64,000 nucleotides of DNA from Halalkalicoccus tibetensis. Lineage in GTDB: Archaea > Halobacteriota > Halobacteria > Halobacteriales > Halalkalicoccaceae. Positions 56,537 to 63,725 of the stretch are shown here, piece after piece. Position numbers and translations under genes: made by a program. How positions within the stretch are numbered: position 1 is the stretch's first letter; the number at the start of each line of letters is the position of its first letter. The stretch is taken from assembly GCF_037996645.1 (NCBI RefSeq), contig NZ_JBBMXV010000001.1:667917-731916 (forward strand), written 5' to 3'. The notes below the pieces were generated by a model. That model was not told the origin of the DNA. It saw nothing but the letters and a program-made list of their open reading frames with translations, and ran no database searches.

Positions 56537-57442
56537 CTAAAAATCAGCGGGTCGCTCGACCGCCACCAGCTCCTCGACGTCGGGGATCTCGGCGCTCGCG
56601 TCCGAGAGCTGCTCCATACGCTGGAGGTGTTTCTCGGCGGCGTAGGTGGTGAGGTCCCCCTCGTCGAGGCCGGCCCCGTCCTCGCTCGCGGCCGCGGTCG
56701 CGGCCACCTCCTGGGTCAGCGGCAACAGGTTGTTGACCGTCCCGTGGACGACGTCGATCGGGACGCCCTCCCCGAGCAGCTCCTTCAGCTTCGCCATCCC
56801 GAACCCGACGTGGCGACCCTCGTCGCCGCGGATCTCCGCGAACCCGTCGACCAGCCCCGGGATCAGGGGCAGTTCGGGGATCTCGCCGCTGTAGTTGGTC
56901 TGGACGGCGTAGTAGCCCGTCTGGGCCATGATCCCCTCGATCGTCAGGTGGTAGTGACAGAGCGCCCGCACGCGGTTCGCGGGCGTGTCCTCCGTGAGCA
57001 GTCGGTCCATGGCCGCCTCGTTTCGCCCGAACAGCTCGTGGTAGGCGTCGAAGAACCAGCGGTCGTCGAGCGGCGAGCTCCGTTCGAGCCCGCGGTCGTC
57101 CTCCGCGGGGTTGATCACCTCCCGCCAGTAGCGGTCGAAGAAGTCGGTGTGTTTGGCCTCCTCGTAGAGCTGGGTCGTGACGAACATCTGGTCCTCGATC
57201 CCCTCCATGACGACCGACAGCGGCGCGAGGTCCTCGGTGACGGCCTCCTCGCCCGCGCCGAACAGCGCCAGCGTCCGCCTGAGGTCCGTGAAGGTCGCCT
57301 CGTCGAGCTTCCCGATCCGTTCGCGATCCGTGCTCAGGTCGATCTCCGCGGGGTCCCAGTGGCGCTCGACGGCGTTCCGGTAGTAGCGGTAGGACCGGGC
57401 GTCCCGGTCGAGGGAGTGCTCCGCGGCGGCGCTTCGATGCAT
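56537..57442 (-). CDS. R2-like ligand-binding oxidase (ribonucleotide reductase beta-like)
   Basis: 301-aa ferritin-fold protein. Metal ligands can be laid out as Glu65, Glu95/His98 (QLYEEAKHTDFF), Glu169 (YHLTIEGIMAQTGYY) and Glu208/His211 (GDEGRHVGFG). Val68 is three residues after Glu65, and Tyr164 is five before Glu169. These are the positions of the Val and Tyr that form the ether cross-link in R2lox, which distinguishes it from class I RNR R2. It would hold a Mn/Fe site and bind a fatty-acid-like ligand; the function is unknown. The sequence is complete. Confidence 0.8.
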   Translation of the reverse strand: MHRSAAAEHSLDRDARSYRYYRNAVERHWDPAEIDLSTDRERIGKLDEATFTDLRRTLALFGAGEEAVTEDLAPLSVVMEGIEDQMFVTTQLYEEAKHTDFFDRYWREVINPAEDDRGLERSSPLDDRWFFDAYHELFGRNEAAMDRLLTEDTPANRVRALCHYHLTIEGIMAQTGYYAVQTNYSGEIPELPLIPGLVDGFAEIRGDEGRHVGFGMAKLKELLGEGVPIDVVHGTVNNLLPLTQEVAATAAASEDGAGLDEGDLTTYAAEKHLQRMEQLSDASAEIPDVEELVAVERPADF

Positions 57443-57767: not shown

Positions 57768-58784
57768 TCAGCGACGGACGCCCGTCGCCGCGGGCGCGGG
57801 CGTAGCCTTCTGGAGGGCGGTCTCGGCGATGTTCGCCCCGTAGTCGCCGATCCGCGACAGCGAGTCGACGATCAGCCCCAGCAGCTGGGCGTCGGTCGGG
57901 TCGACGCTTCTGAGGCGTTCGTCGATCGTCCGGGTCCGGGCGTCGATCCCCGCCGACCGGGCGAGCGTCGCCGTCGCGAGCTCCGTCGCCCGGTCGGAGT
58001 CCTCGACGAGGAAGGCGTCCATCGCGTTCTCGACGGTCTCGCGGGACTCGGTTTCGAGCGCCGCGAGCGGCTCGCGAACGCCCTCGGGGAGCCCGTCCAG
58101 CTCCTCGACGTGGCCCGCGATCTTGACCGAATGGTCCGCGATCCGCTCGATCTGTCTCGCACACGTCCGGTAGTCGAAGCAGGTCTCGCGCCCGAGGTCG
58201 ATCGCGGCGGCCGCCCGCGGATCGCGCAACACGGAGCGAAACAGCCGCGAGGTGACGTACCACAGCCGGTCGACGTCGTCGTCGCGCTCGGCGAACGCCG
58301 CCGCCCGCACGGGCTCCCCCTCGAGCAGCCCCTCGGCCGCCTCCTCGAGCATCGACAGCGAGAGCAGGCGCATCTGCATGACGGTGTTGTGTAACGAGAG
58401 CTCCGAGGAATCGAGGAAGTCCTGGAGGACGATCCGGTCCTCGGTCTCGGCGCTGACCTCGAAGCCCACGAGGTCGGTTGCCGCCGACCGGATCGCACGA
58501 CGCTGGTCGGTCGCGATCCGATCGCCCTCGAGGGCGATCTCGTCGAAGCCGTTGATGTAGAGGGTGACGATCCGGCTCTCGAGCTCCCCGGGGCTCGCGT
58601 CCTCGGTCGCGAGGGTCGTGCTGGCTTCGATGGCCACACTCGAGGGCGCGGCGACGAGGGTGTCGCCCTCCGGGTAGAACGCTAGCTCGCTTCCCGCCTC
58701 GATTCCGGTCTCGGTCGCCCACTCCTTGGGCAACGAGACGGTGTAGGTCGACCCGCCCGTGATCTGGACCTTACGGACCTCCAT
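57768..58784 (-). CDS. AbrB-PhoU phosphate-uptake regulator
   Basis: 338 aa. Residues 1-45 are a SpoVT/AbrB DNA-binding domain (MEVRKVQITGGSTYTVSLPKEW), and residues 100-330 contain two PhoU-like helical repeats with DDVDRLWYVTSRLFRSVL and QIERIADHSVKIAGHVEEL. It probably senses phosphate signalling and binds DNA. It is divergent from the pst operon, so control of that operon is likely. A TATA-like gcttatg at about 58808 supports ATG 58784. It is distinct from the smaller PhoU at 63057. Confidence 0.88.
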   Translation of the reverse strand: MEVRKVQITGGSTYTVSLPKEWATETGIEAGSELAFYPEGDTLVAAPSSVAIEASTTLATEDASPGELESRIVTLYINGFDEIALEGDRIATDQRRAIRSAATDLVGFEVSAETEDRIVLQDFLDSSELSLHNTVMQMRLLSLSMLEEAAEGLLEGEPVRAAAFAERDDDVDRLWYVTSRLFRSVLRDPRAAAAIDLGRETCFDYRTCARQIERIADHSVKIAGHVEELDGLPEGVREPLAALETESRETVENAMDAFLVEDSDRATELATATLARSAGIDARTRTIDERLRSVDPTDAQLLGLIVDSLSRIGDYGANIAETALQKATPAPAATGVRR

Positions 58785-59113: not shown

Positions 59114-60193
59114 ATGATGGCAACTGATCCATCGGCTACGGGGACGACGAGGCGGAAGTTCTTGACTGCCGTGGGCGCGTCCGGGGCGATCGGACTGGCC
59201 GGGTGTACCGATTTCCTCGAGGACCAGGCGGGGTCGGAGGCGGCGATCGAGACGGTCGCCGTCGAGAGCGACGAGGACGGGGAGTTCTACCACCCGACCG
59301 AGGAGAACATCGAGAGCGGCGTCTACTCGCCGCTGACCAGGCCGCTGTTCATCTTCGTCAACCACGCGACCCTCGAGGAGAACCCGGACCTGATCGGCTC
59401 GTACGTCCAGTTCTACTTCGAGAACCAGCACGAGTTCGCCCGCGATACGGGCTACTACGCGACCGACGACGAGACCCGCGATCAGAACATGGAGGAGTTC
59501 CAGGCCGTACTCGACGACCTCGGTGTCGAGGTCGACCCCGACGACATCGACGGCGGGACGATCGACTGTTCGGGCTCGAACACGGTCGCGCCGATCACCT
59601 CGGCAGCGGGCGAGGACTTCGAGAACGAACACGAGGGCGTGAGCGTCGCGGTCAACCCCGAGGGGACCGGTGCGGGCTTTCAGGATTTCGCGACCGGTGG
59701 CTCGGACATCCAGAGCGCGAGCCGGGAGATCCTCGACGAGGAGGCCGAGGTCGCCGAGGAGAACGGCGTCGAGTACTCCCACTACGAGATCGGCTGGGAC
59801 GGGCTGGCAGTCGTCAAACACGCCGACAACGACTGGATGGACGAGATCACCCTCGACGACCTCCACGCGGTCTGGCGGTACGAGTCCGAGATCACGGCCT
59901 GGAGCGACATCGACGACGAGTATCCCGACGAGGAGATCGACCTCTGGGGACGGGACGACGACTCGGGGACGTTCGACTACTTCACCCGCGAGATCAACGG
60001 CGAGATCGGCTCCATCCGGACCGACTACAGCGCCCACACCGACACCGGATCGATCATGGAGGGGGTCGCCGAGAGCCAGTACGCCTTCGGCTGGGGCGGG
60101 GTCGGCTACTTCACCGAGCTCGGCGGCGAGCCCGGCGAGGGCGGCGCCGAGGTCGAGGATGGCAACGACGGGGACGACGAGGACGACGAATAA
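59114..60193 (+). CDS. pstS: Phosphate-binding lipoprotein PstS, circularly permuted
   Basis: 359-aa Tat-exported (RRKFL) lipoprotein with lipobox LAGC, which binds phosphate for the Pst importer. Residues 45-135 (YHPTEENIESG, SPLTRPLFIFVNHATLEEN) match the C-terminal part of ordinary PstS, whereas residues 148-336 (DCSGSNTVAPITSAAG, NPEGTGAGFQDF, SASREI, DDSGTFDYF) match its N-terminal part. So the order is reversed relative to the family: a circular permutation. ATG 59114 is about 26 bp after the TATA. Phosphate-contacting motifs are intact. First gene of the operon. Confidence 0.85.
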   Translation: MMATDPSATGTTRRKFLTAVGASGAIGLAGCTDFLEDQAGSEAAIETVAVESDEDGEFYHPTEENIESGVYSPLTRPLFIFVNHATLEENPDLIGSYVQFYFENQHEFARDTGYYATDDETRDQNMEEFQAVLDDLGVEVDPDDIDGGTIDCSGSNTVAPITSAAGEDFENEHEGVSVAVNPEGTGAGFQDFATGGSDIQSASREILDEEAEVAEENGVEYSHYEIGWDGLAVVKHADNDWMDEITLDDLHAVWRYESEITAWSDIDDEYPDEEIDLWGRDDDSGTFDYFTREINGEIGSIRTDYSAHTDTGSIMEGVAESQYAFGWGGVGYFTELGGEPGEGGAEVEDGNDGDDEDDE

Positions 60194-60208: not shown

Positions 60209-61222
60209 ATGAGTACGGACACAGGCCAACCGTCGGGGATCACGGAGGACATCGCTTCGGGCGATCAGCGACGCGACCGCATGATCCGTCGGATCCTCCT
60301 TGGGGCGACGAGCATCACCGTGTTGACGACGATCGCGATCTTCGCCGTGCTCTTCGACAACACGTGGGGCTTCTTCTTCGACGCGACGTTTTCCGAGTGG
60401 GTCAGTACCTCGATTCTCAACCTCGGGATGGACGGACTGACCCAGCGAGTCACGTTTACCGAGTTCTTTACCGACTCCCAGTGGCGTCCCTCCCACGCAG
60501 ACGACCCGCGGTTCGGCATTCCGACGCTGATCTCCGCGACGATCCTGATCACGGTCGGGGCGGCGTTCGTCTCGATTCCCATCGGGACCGCGGCGGCGCT
60601 GTACCTCTCGGAGTACGCGGGCACGCGAACCCGCAAGTACCTCAAACCCACTCTCGAAGTTCTCGCGGGCGTTCCGACGATCGTCTACGGCTTCTTCGCC
60701 GTCTCGTTCGTCACGCCGGTGCTGTTGCGACCCGTTCTCGAGGTCTTCGGGCTCTCGGTCGGGCGCAACAACGCGCTCGCGGGGATGGTCGTCGTCGGGA
60801 TCATGACGATCCCGATGGTCGCCTCGATCTCCGAGGACGCGATGAACTCCGTTCCCGACGAACTCAGAAACGGCGCGTACGCGCTCGGGGCCTCGAAGTA
60901 CAAGGTCTCGGCGAGCGTCGTACTACCGGCGTCGATCTCCGGCGTGTTCGCCTCCTATATCCTCGCGGTCTCGCGGGCGATCGGCGAGACGATGGCCGTG
61001 ACGCTGGCAGCCGGCGCGACCCCGAACCTCACCGCGAACCCGCTGGCGGAGGTCCAGACGATGACCGCCTACATGGTGACCAGCGCCCGCTCGACCGCGC
61101 TGGTCGGCTCGGTCACCTATCAGAGCCTCTTCGCCGTCGGACTGGTGTTGTTCCTGATGACGCTCGCGGCGAACCTCGTCAACGACTACATCAAACGGCG
61201 GTATCGCGAGGTGTACCAATGA
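60209..61222 (+). CDS. pstC: Phosphate ABC transporter permease PstC
   Basis: 337 aa with six transmembrane helices and a cytoplasmic N-terminus. Conserved segments are YGFFAVSFVTPVLL, ASISEDAMNSVPDELRNGAY and ALGASKYKVSASVVLP (the EAA-type coupling loop), then AIGETMAVTLAAGA, which identify PstC. The loop between helices one and two is long (about residues 55-100). It starts 16 bp after pstS and its stop overlaps a tiny ORF by ATGA. Confidence 0.93.
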   Translation: MSTDTGQPSGITEDIASGDQRRDRMIRRILLGATSITVLTTIAIFAVLFDNTWGFFFDATFSEWVSTSILNLGMDGLTQRVTFTEFFTDSQWRPSHADDPRFGIPTLISATILITVGAAFVSIPIGTAAALYLSEYAGTRTRKYLKPTLEVLAGVPTIVYGFFAVSFVTPVLLRPVLEVFGLSVGRNNALAGMVVVGIMTIPMVASISEDAMNSVPDELRNGAYALGASKYKVSASVVLPASISGVFASYILAVSRAIGETMAVTLAAGATPNLTANPLAEVQTMTAYMVTSARSTALVGSVTYQSLFAVGLVLFLMTLAANLVNDYIKRRYREVYQ

Positions 61223-61275: not shown

Positions 61276-61334
61276 GTTCAGTCACAATGCAGTTGCTCCC
61301 TACTCATACTCGCCACCGGGGGTGGCTCGCATGA
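61272..61334 (+). CDS. Tiny ORF 2 between pstC and pstA, 20 aa
   Basis: Begins MSSVTMQLLPTHTRH and ends RGWLA, with the stop overlapping pstA's ATG (61331) by four bases. The start context ggttcgcatgag resembles pstA's ggctcgcatgag. As with ORF 1, translational coupling is the main reason to list it. Confidence 0.3.
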   Translation: MSSVTMQLLPTHTRHRGWLA

Positions 61335-62230
61335 GCACGGACACCGGCTCGGATCTGCTTTCGGACATCGACCTGACGTGGGTCAAGCGCAAGGAGCTGC
61401 TGTTTCACGCCACGCTCGTGTCGGCCGCGCTGTTCGGCGTGGTGATGCTCGCGCTGTTGATCCTCGACGTCCTGCTCGAAACGGCGGTCGGGGTCGTCGT
61501 CATCGGCATCGACGTCGGGACGTTCGTCAGTAGCGGCGCCTCGCGCAACTGGGAGAACGCCGGCTTCCTGCCCGCGATCATCGGCTCGATCTGGCTCGTT
61601 CTCTTCACGTTGGTCTTCTCGTTTTTCCTCGGCGTCGCCACCGCGACCTATCTGGAGGAGTACGCACCGAGAAGCCGGATCACCCGCCTCATCGAGGCGA
61701 ACCTGACGAACCTCGCCGGCGTCCCGTCGGTCGTCTATGGACTACTTGCGCTCGGCGTCTTCGTCAACGGGCTCCGACTGGGCGAGATCCTCATCGCCGG
61801 CGCGCTCGCGCTCGCGTTGCTGGTCGTCCCGATCGTGATCGTCGCGAGCCAGGAGGCGCTGCGGGCGGTGCCCGACGGCGTTCGCCACGGCTCGCTCGCG
61901 ACCGGCGCGACCCGCTGGCAGACGATCCGGGGCGTCGTGCTCCCGGCCGCACTTCCCGGGATCGTCACCGGAACGATCCTCGCGCTCGCACGCGCGATCG
62001 GGGAGACCGCGCCGCTGATCATGGTCGGAGCGGTGCTCGAAGCGCGCCAGTCGCCCGGCCCGACGGATCTGTTCGGGTCGATGCCGACGATGATCTACTA
62101 CTGGTCGTTCCGGCCGATCACCGAGTTCCACCACCTGGCCGCGCTCGGCATCCTGATCCTGCTGTTGATCCTCGTCGGGATGTACGGCCTCGCGTTCTTC
62201 GTGCGCAACCGCTACGAAACGGGTGTTTGA
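61331..62230 (+). CDS. pstA: Phosphate ABC transporter permease PstA
   Basis: 299-aa permease with about six transmembrane helices. [38 protein letters not shown] and [16 protein letters not shown] (coupling loop), then [16 protein letters not shown] are PstA signatures. ATG 61331 is preferred to GTG 61322 because its ATGA overlaps the preceding tiny ORF. Confidence 0.93.
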
Positions 62231-62231
62231 A

Positions 62232-63056
62232 ATGGCAACAAAGGAAAACGAACCACTCATATCGACCGAGGTATCGAGCAGCGAAACCGAACGATCCGCC
62301 CGGCCCGACGAGACGGTCCTCGCGGCACGAGACCTCGACGTCTACTACGGCGACGAACCGGCCCTTCAGGACGTCTCGATCGAGGTTCCCGAACACAAGG
62401 TGACGGCGATCATCGGCCCGTCGGGCTGTGGGAAGTCGACGTTCCTGCGCTCGATCAACCGGATGAACGACCTCATCGACGTCTGTCGTGTCGAAGGTGA
62501 GTTGGTCTTTCGCGGCAAGGACGTCTACGACGAGGACGTCGACCCCGTCGCGCTGCGCCGGACGGTCGGGATGGTGTTCCAGAAGCCCAATCCGTTCCCG
62601 AAGAGCATCAGGGACAACGTCAGCTACGGGCTCGAAGTGCAGGGCCAGTCGGCGACCGACGAGGACGTCGAGCAGGCGCTGCGCGGGGCGGCGCTGTGGG
62701 ACGAGGTGGAGGGGAAGCTCGATTCGTCCGGGCTCGACCTCTCGGGGGGCCAACAACAGCGTCTCTGTATCGCCCGGGCGATCGCACCGGACCCCGAGGT
62801 ACTGCTGATGGACGAGCCGACGAGCGCGCTCGACCCCGTCGCCGCCTCGAAGATCGAGGACCTGATCGACGAGCTGGCACGCGACTATACGGTCGTGATC
62901 GTCACCCACAACATGCAACAGGCGGCGAGAATCAGCGACAAGACCGCCGTGTTCCTTACCGGCGGAAAGCTCGTCGAGTTCGACGATACCACGAAGATCT
63001 TCGAGAACCCGGAGCACCGGGAGGTCGAGGACTACATCACGGGGAAGTTCGGATAG
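62232..63056 (+). CDS. pstB: Phosphate ABC transporter ATP-binding protein PstB
   Basis: 274-aa ATPase. Walker [22 protein letters not shown]-loop [12 protein letters not shown], signature [14 protein letters not shown], Walker [14 protein letters not shown] and [12 protein letters not shown] are all present and characteristic of PstB. The N-terminal 35 residues are acidic and variable. Its stop abuts the phoU ATG with no gap. Confidence 0.95.
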
Positions 63057-63725
63057 ATGGCCCGAAACGAGTATCAGAACCGGCTCGAGGGGCTCCGGGA
63101 GGACGTCCTCCACATGGGCGAGACGGTGCGCGAGCGCCTCGGGATCGCGTTGCGCGCCCTCGAGGAGCGAAACGAGGCGCTCGGCCGGGAGGTCATCGAG
63201 CGCGACTACGAGATAAACGAGACGTACCTCGAGCTCGAACGCGAGTGTACGGACCTGATCGCGCTCCAGCAGCCCGTCGCCGGCGACCTGCGCTTCATCG
63301 CCGCCTCCTTCAAGATCATCACCGACCTCGAACGCGTCGCCGACCTCGCGACCAACCTCGGCGAGTACGCGGGGCGCGCCGAACGCGAGATCTACCCTGA
63401 CGTCGACGTCGGCCACATCGGCGAGCGGGTCGACGAGGCCCTGGGCGAGGCGATGGCTGCCTACGCCGAGGAGGACGTCGAGGCCTGCTACGCGATCGCC
63501 GAGCGCGACGAAGAGATCGACGACCTCTGTGAGCGCGCGAGCGAGCTGGTCATCCGGGACCTGATCGAGACCGACATGGACGGGGCCGAGACGGAACGAC
63601 TCTTCGGGGAGGTCTCGCGCCTGCTGCTCACCGTCCGGGACCTCGAGCGCGTCGGGGACCATGCCGTCAACATCGCCGCCCGCACCCTCTACATGGTCGA
63701 GAGCGACGACGAACTGATCTACTGA
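63057..63725 (+). CDS. phoU: Phosphate transport regulator PhoU
   Basis: 222-aa all-helical protein with two PhoU three-helix repeats, each carrying a metal-binding D/E motif (FKIITDLERVADLATNLGEY and LTVRDLERVGDHAVNIAART). It restrains Pst activity or signalling when phosphate is plentiful. Start ATG directly follows the pstB stop. It closes the operon. Confidence 0.95.
   Translation: MARNEYQNRLEGLREDVLHMGETVRERLGIALRALEERNEALGREVIERDYEINETYLELERECTDLIALQQPVAGDLRFIAASFKIITDLERVADLATNLGEYAGRAEREIYPDVDVGHIGERVDEALGEAMAAYAEEDVEACYAIAERDEEIDDLCERASELVIRDLIETDMDGAETERLFGEVSRLLLTVRDLERVGDHAVNIAARTLYMVESDDELIY

Follow-up and report, generated by a model that had tools for sequence, protein, structure and literature searches.

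In the genome of Halalkalicoccus tibetensis, the ORF at 59114–60193 of the window (the whole stretch of 64,000 nucleotides analysed here) very probably encodes a genuine circularly permuted PstS, in which the C-terminal block of the normal protein stands at the N-terminus. PstS, an extracellular lipoprotein, captures the phosphate that the PstCAB importer takes up. Comparison with TIGR02136 (NCBIfam; 6.1e-58) returned two stretches in exchanged order, the best of which placed residues 146–335 on positions 39–224 of the 295-position profile. A phmmer comparison with the solved PstS structure 4jwo aligned residues 147–337 with positions 60–250 of the chain (147.6 bits) and residues 47–114 with positions 255–321 (22.3 bits), thereby indicating that the order of the two segments is exchanged, and the same exchange was seen against 4pqj and 4omb. 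The C-terminal PxxENI...PLxRPLF block of PstS is thus present, but at the N-terminus (residues 45–141), and at its start lies the strand IETVAVES, which comes after the core in normal PstS. This stretch of about 97 residues comes straight after the Tat/lipobox signal, and a linker of some 5–10 residues connects the old C-terminus with the old mature N-terminus. The permuted order had been proposed in a first-pass annotation from the positions of conserved motifs, and these two independent comparisons confirmed it; the residue numbers also agreed (PLTRPLFIF at 73–81, SGSNTVAP at 153–160 and DDSGTFDYF at 282–290). No second tail block was found 3′ of the core. Because only 22 residues lie between the core and the stop codon, and pstC starts 16 nt beyond the latter, no second tail is hidden downstream. 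The chain stops at the point from which normal PstS would continue into the moved block, in line with the earlier observation that it ends soon after the YAFGWGGVGYF segment, and the second PLTRPLF block that would have spoken against a permutation is absent. As a whole, the swapped order is evident from the sequence, from the relatives and from the trees described below. The source genome also carries a normal-order pstS paralogue (G000:C1:28711-29640). A third, distant PstS-like protein of this genome (G000:C3:452991-453815; TIGR02136, 83.8 bits) was joined to the tree by a very long branch.

The permuted pstS is the first gene of a complete pst operon, pstS-C-A-B-phoU, as the first-pass annotation had stated, and pstC, pstA, pstB and phoU follow pstS in 13 of 13 operons of the permuted group described below, the window included. 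The coordinates of the gene, its segments and its neighbors are listed in Table 1. Several other pst operons of haloarchaea are also preceded by a PhoU-domain gene with an AbrB/SpoVT-like start, as in the window, where this gene is divergent from pstS.

Table 1. Permuted pstS, its segments and neighboring genes in the window (residue numbers are those of the permuted protein)
Feature	Position	Strand	Evidence
R2-like ligand-binding oxidase relative	56537–57442	-	NF006200, 4.8e-45, below its cut-off
Divergent PhoU-domain protein, AbrB/SpoVT-like N-terminus (read by eye)	57768–58784	-	TIGR02135, 2.2e-19, 69.9 bits, below cut-off
Permuted pstS, 359 aa plus stop (ATG at 59114, stop codon ending at 60193)	59114–60193	+	TIGR02136 in two stretches, exchanged order
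Tat signal (RRKFLTAVGA) and lipobox LAGC, residues 1–31, RRKFLTAVGASGAIGLAGC	59114–59206	+	Sequence; TIGR01409, 13.9 bits, under the cut-off of 16.7
Beta strand IETVAVES, residues 44–51, now the first fold element and site of the new N-terminus	59243–59266	+	DSSP of AF2 model
Moved block, formerly C-terminal, residues 45–141 (PTEENI...PLTRPLFIFV...GYYAT...)	59246–59536	+	Alignments, orthologues, AF2 model
Junction linker, residues 142–146, old C-terminus to old N-terminus	59537–59551	+	
Formerly N-terminal block and core, residues 147–337 (SGSNTVAP, GTGAGF, SASR, RDDDSGTFD, GWGGVGYF)	59552–60124	+	PF12849, 2.1e-26; 4jwo 60–250
New acidic C-terminal tail, residues 338–359, low model confidence	60125–60190	+	AF2 model
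pstC, permease	60209–61222	+	TIGR02138, 9.9e-70
pstA, permease	61322–62230	+	TIGR00974, 6.8e-69
pstB, ATPase	62223–63056	+	TIGR00972, 2e-112
phoU	63057–63725	+	TIGR02135, 2.7e-48

The AF2 model of the permuted protein, whose input alignment held unpaired fragments of normal PstS, showed pLDDT values of 96–98 over both blocks and a pTM of 0.79, with approximately 50 residues disordered. Residues 44–136 were placed inside the PstS fold, which was the outcome that the first-pass annotation had named as support for a permutation. The moved block is therefore predicted to take its usual place in the two-lobed fold, its docking being judged from pLDDT, pTM and DSSP. Foldseek, which is bound to chain order, found no more than about 200 alignable columns in PstS structures (TMt 0.51 to 4jwo), a result to be expected of a permutant, and its best matches were phosphate-binding proteins. 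From the PstS fold, we take the cut to lie just past the second crossing between the lobes, so that lobe 1 should be one unbroken stretch of the chain. The lipid anchor would then be attached ahead of the strand that follows the second crossing, instead of ahead of beta-1.

The tail-core order was also found in 12 further genomes, and together with the source they span four haloarchaeal families with an identical breakpoint. These 13 genomes, hereafter clade A, comprise G000 (the source), G004, G007 and G008 in f1, a family that includes a Halococcaceae MAG; G188, G199, G293, G322 and G721 in f8 (Natrialbaceae); G022 in f14; and G033, G044 and G054 in f10. One of them, Natronorubrum texcoconense (G188), is an isolate. 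In all of clade A there is a single cut, just 5′ of the strand TVAVES, and a single junction, and residues R13, R14, G30 and C31 are invariant in the 13 permuted orthologues. In the PstS tree, for which the core and tail of each protein were aligned apart and then set in one common order, clade A was monophyletic with support of 97/100; the distant PstS-like protein of the source genome (L006, branch 8.9) was omitted from the tree used for topology tests. A profile scan of the ORFs in the loci fetched gave 15 distinct tail-core genes, 60 core-tail genes and one core-tail-core-tail gene. The survey of block order covered 392 sampled genomes and lists strong matches alone, so that weak permutants may be missed, and on this sample the permuted form is a small minority. 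Elsewhere in the phylum, no permuted PstS but only fused tandems were found at E ≤ 1e-30 among the matches listed from 393 sampled genomes, the source's own matches aside. The search for the same order that had been suggested as a check thus yielded 12 other genomes with one breakpoint, as well as a second, independent permutation in the haloarchaeon G011 (see below). Plasmid-borne copies were also considered: three bacterial plasmid matches read whole had the normal order, and the best haloarchaeal plasmid match, on a Natronomonas pharaonis plasmid, was the normal-order gene of G147.

The closest normal-order relative of the permuted proteins is the PstS of G009, with 68% identity in the core and 67% in the tail. 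Compared with this close relative, the two homologous segments are exchanged, which is what defines a circular permutant. G009, known from a 6.7-kb contig of an incomplete genome, grouped with clade A at 83/90, a support that is not firm. Its signal peptide was 75–81% identical to those of the permuted PstS in G007 and G008, which belong to the same genus, and the promoter region was visibly alike (L061 upstream of 831, compared with L029 and L063). In the best PstS tree, however, its body did not fall among the permuted bodies, and in the PstC tree G009 fell inside clade A, beside all members but those of f10. In Natrialbaceae, the opening TSETGRTGV is common to the normal protein of G225 and the permuted protein of G199. 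Recombination may have swapped gene bodies while leaving the resident signals in place; alternatively, G009 may have reverted to the normal order.

As to its origin, the permuted pstS probably arose from a tandem duplication. The two copies would have been fused in frame, and behind the original signal sequence the fused gene would then have lost its first core and its last tail. According to PMC3320104, permutation by duplication predicts fused duplicates, and in other archaea such a fused form of PstS exists and persists. In the haloarchaeon G118 (family f4), a single Tat lipobox signal is followed by two complete, nearly identical PstS bodies in a 679-aa PstS–PstS fusion (L060, 6470–8506, - strand), the first gene of a pst operon. 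Fused PstS–PstS frames of 593 and 587 aa with a similar design were found in G465 (L119, 3143–4921, + strand) and G469 (L120, 3177–4937, + strand), two members of family f19 that appear to be of methanosarcinal type; in both, a separate single PstS gene lies just upstream of the fused gene. The fusions in G118, G465 and G469 belong to other PstS subfamilies and show that the step occurs, not that clade A or G011 took it. The spread of the permuted form, its two origins and the fused tandems all go beyond the first reading of this gene.

Among the genes surveyed, neither clade A nor G011 had a fused intermediate in its direct line. A remnant of the second tail was sought in the acidic C-terminus (...FEVEESDDED compared with ...PIEAVPVESDADGE), where the likeness was suggestive, yet no better than that of shuffled tails (p 0.10–0.97). 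The duplication route consequently rests on the related cases, and both negative results would also suit a permutation by fission and fusion, or by cut-and-paste of the tail segment, without a tandem duplication. We consider such a course unlikely, because the PstS–PstS fusions described above are complete and in frame, a split PstS pair was seen nowhere among the ORFs examined in a non-systematic look, and the normal PstS signal sequence is kept in front, as duplication behind the original promoter predicts.

The first-pass annotation had also judged that all phosphate-site motifs remain. The motifs SGSxTVxP, GTGxGF, SR and RDxDSGT, whose assignment to phosphate-site residues follows E. coli PstS, were indeed all kept, with little or no variation among the 13 orthologues. 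Mean identity within clade A was 69.5% for the moved block and 69.7% for the core, i.e., the two are equally conserved. The permuted PstS would bind phosphate via the canonical residues, close, and dock on PstCA as ordinary PstS does, and the sequences suggest ordinary capture of phosphate and delivery to PstCAB with a shifted anchor point. Because most genomes with a permuted PstS also carry a normal one in a second operon (all carriers other than G033 and G011), a shift in role is conceivable, with the permuted protein acting no longer in phosphate import but as a sensor or a binder of another anion. This is improbable, given that the permuted gene heads its own pstC-A-B-phoU operon, that the site motifs are conserved as described, and that in G033 (89% complete) and G011 (86% complete) the permuted genes were the only TIGR02136 matches found. 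Phosphate import is the preferred role. It is also conceivable, though doubtful, that the path from tandem fusion to permutation was driven repeatedly in PstS of salt-loving archaea because the new order is advantageous, either through a continuous lobe 1 or through an anchor better placed for docking on PstCA, e.g., under Tat export, in which folding precedes secretion.

The second permutation was found in the haloarchaeon G011 (family f3; clade B), which has two permuted pstS paralogues, each followed by pstC and pstA. Here, the cut lies on the opposite side of the same beta strand: the last residues of the chain are ...SNPDQVTAVAIEDES, and at its other end the lipobox and a spacer lead into ...SGVEPSLETAKSGEYSPLSRPLF. 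The strand is therefore found as TVAVES at the N-terminus in clade A and as TAVAIEDES at the C-terminus in G011, and the models located it at 44–51 in the window protein (P0001) and at 329–331, the C-terminus, in G011. The G011 model (pTM 0.80) used alignment A5; the earlier alignment A4 misplaced tail fragments. G011 branched within another PstS subfamily than clade A, and PstC trees likewise kept the two apart. Forcing both permuted groups into one clade cost 221.6 lnL units (AU p = 1.4e-5); the groups were defined once the first tree was known, so that the formal p-value carries less weight, although a gap of this size is hardly affected. Since a single permuted clade was rejected, the permutation of PstS arose at least twice independently. 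One ancient permutation that gave rise to both groups, with many later reversions to the normal order, would explain why nearly the same block was moved to the same place in both, but it is very improbable in view of the AU test and of cut sites that are one beta strand apart.

Several carriers are metagenome bins with many contigs, but both an error of assembly or annotation and a pseudogene in decay were ruled out, since independent assemblies of 13 genomes, including an isolate and assemblies of 2–4 contigs (G007 and G199), agree in order and breakpoint, the frames are open, the operon is intact, the site motifs are kept, and dN/dS in clade A is 0.12–0.28, well under 1. In clade A, the permuted order is conserved and the genes are under purifying selection. 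Between the two paralogues of G011, dN/dS was 0.34.

The permuted proteins are like the PstS family (TIGR02136/PF12849, e.g., 4jwo) in core sequence, site motifs, Tat/lipoprotein export, operon partners and predicted two-lobed fold, and differ from normal members in carrying in front the block with which the latter end. The cut-off of TIGR02136 is 206.6 bits; the source protein scored 196.3 bits and all permuted genes 154–201 bits in the genome search, whereas most normal paralogues scored 207–237 bits. This shortfall is what a co-linear profile gives a permuted member, and membership is claimed solely as a permuted variant. Automatic naming can miss proteins below the cut-off, which may be one reason why permuted PstS went unnoticed. 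The first-pass annotation knew of no description of a permuted PstS, and a full-text search of open papers found none; for PDB 9l8j, the title of which mentions an evolutionary hotspot, no matching open paper was found.

Tp0684 (MglB-2) of Treponema pallidum comes closest as a precedent; for this permuted glucose-binding lipoprotein, the class “Type Ic / Cluster Bc” was proposed (PMC4990184). Like the permuted PstS, it is a lipid-anchored binding protein of an ABC importer, and it keeps ligand binding, but it has another fold class (Type I, cluster B) and another ligand, and its first N-lobe strands are shifted toward the C-terminus, whereas in PstS the last block is shifted to the N-terminus (PMC4990184). 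The permuted part of Tp0684 is little like normal members in sequence (PMC4990184), whereas the moved block of PstS is on average 52% identical to the normal sister group, with a maximum of 67%. The permuted PstS falls outside Type Ic / Cluster Bc, its core being PstS (PF12849) and its best Foldseek matches phosphate-binding proteins. The route proposed for PstS is that of permutation by duplication in DNA methyltransferases and saposin/swaposin, and the examples in the accessible text of PMC3320104 include no PstS or other phosphate-binding protein. The PstS–PstS tandems have an internal tail-to-core junction ordered as in the permuted PstS, but they keep both cores and both tails and belong to other subfamilies. 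Tp0684 was the one well-studied example of a natural permutation of an ABC-importer binding protein that we found, and PstS is the second. Permuted PstS belongs to a much-studied family, has close normal-order kin at 68% identity and originated at least twice, and lineages related to it contain fused duplicates. This allows direct tests of how permutation by duplication proceeds and of what the anchor shift does; because co-linear profiles under-score permuted proteins, others may be hidden.
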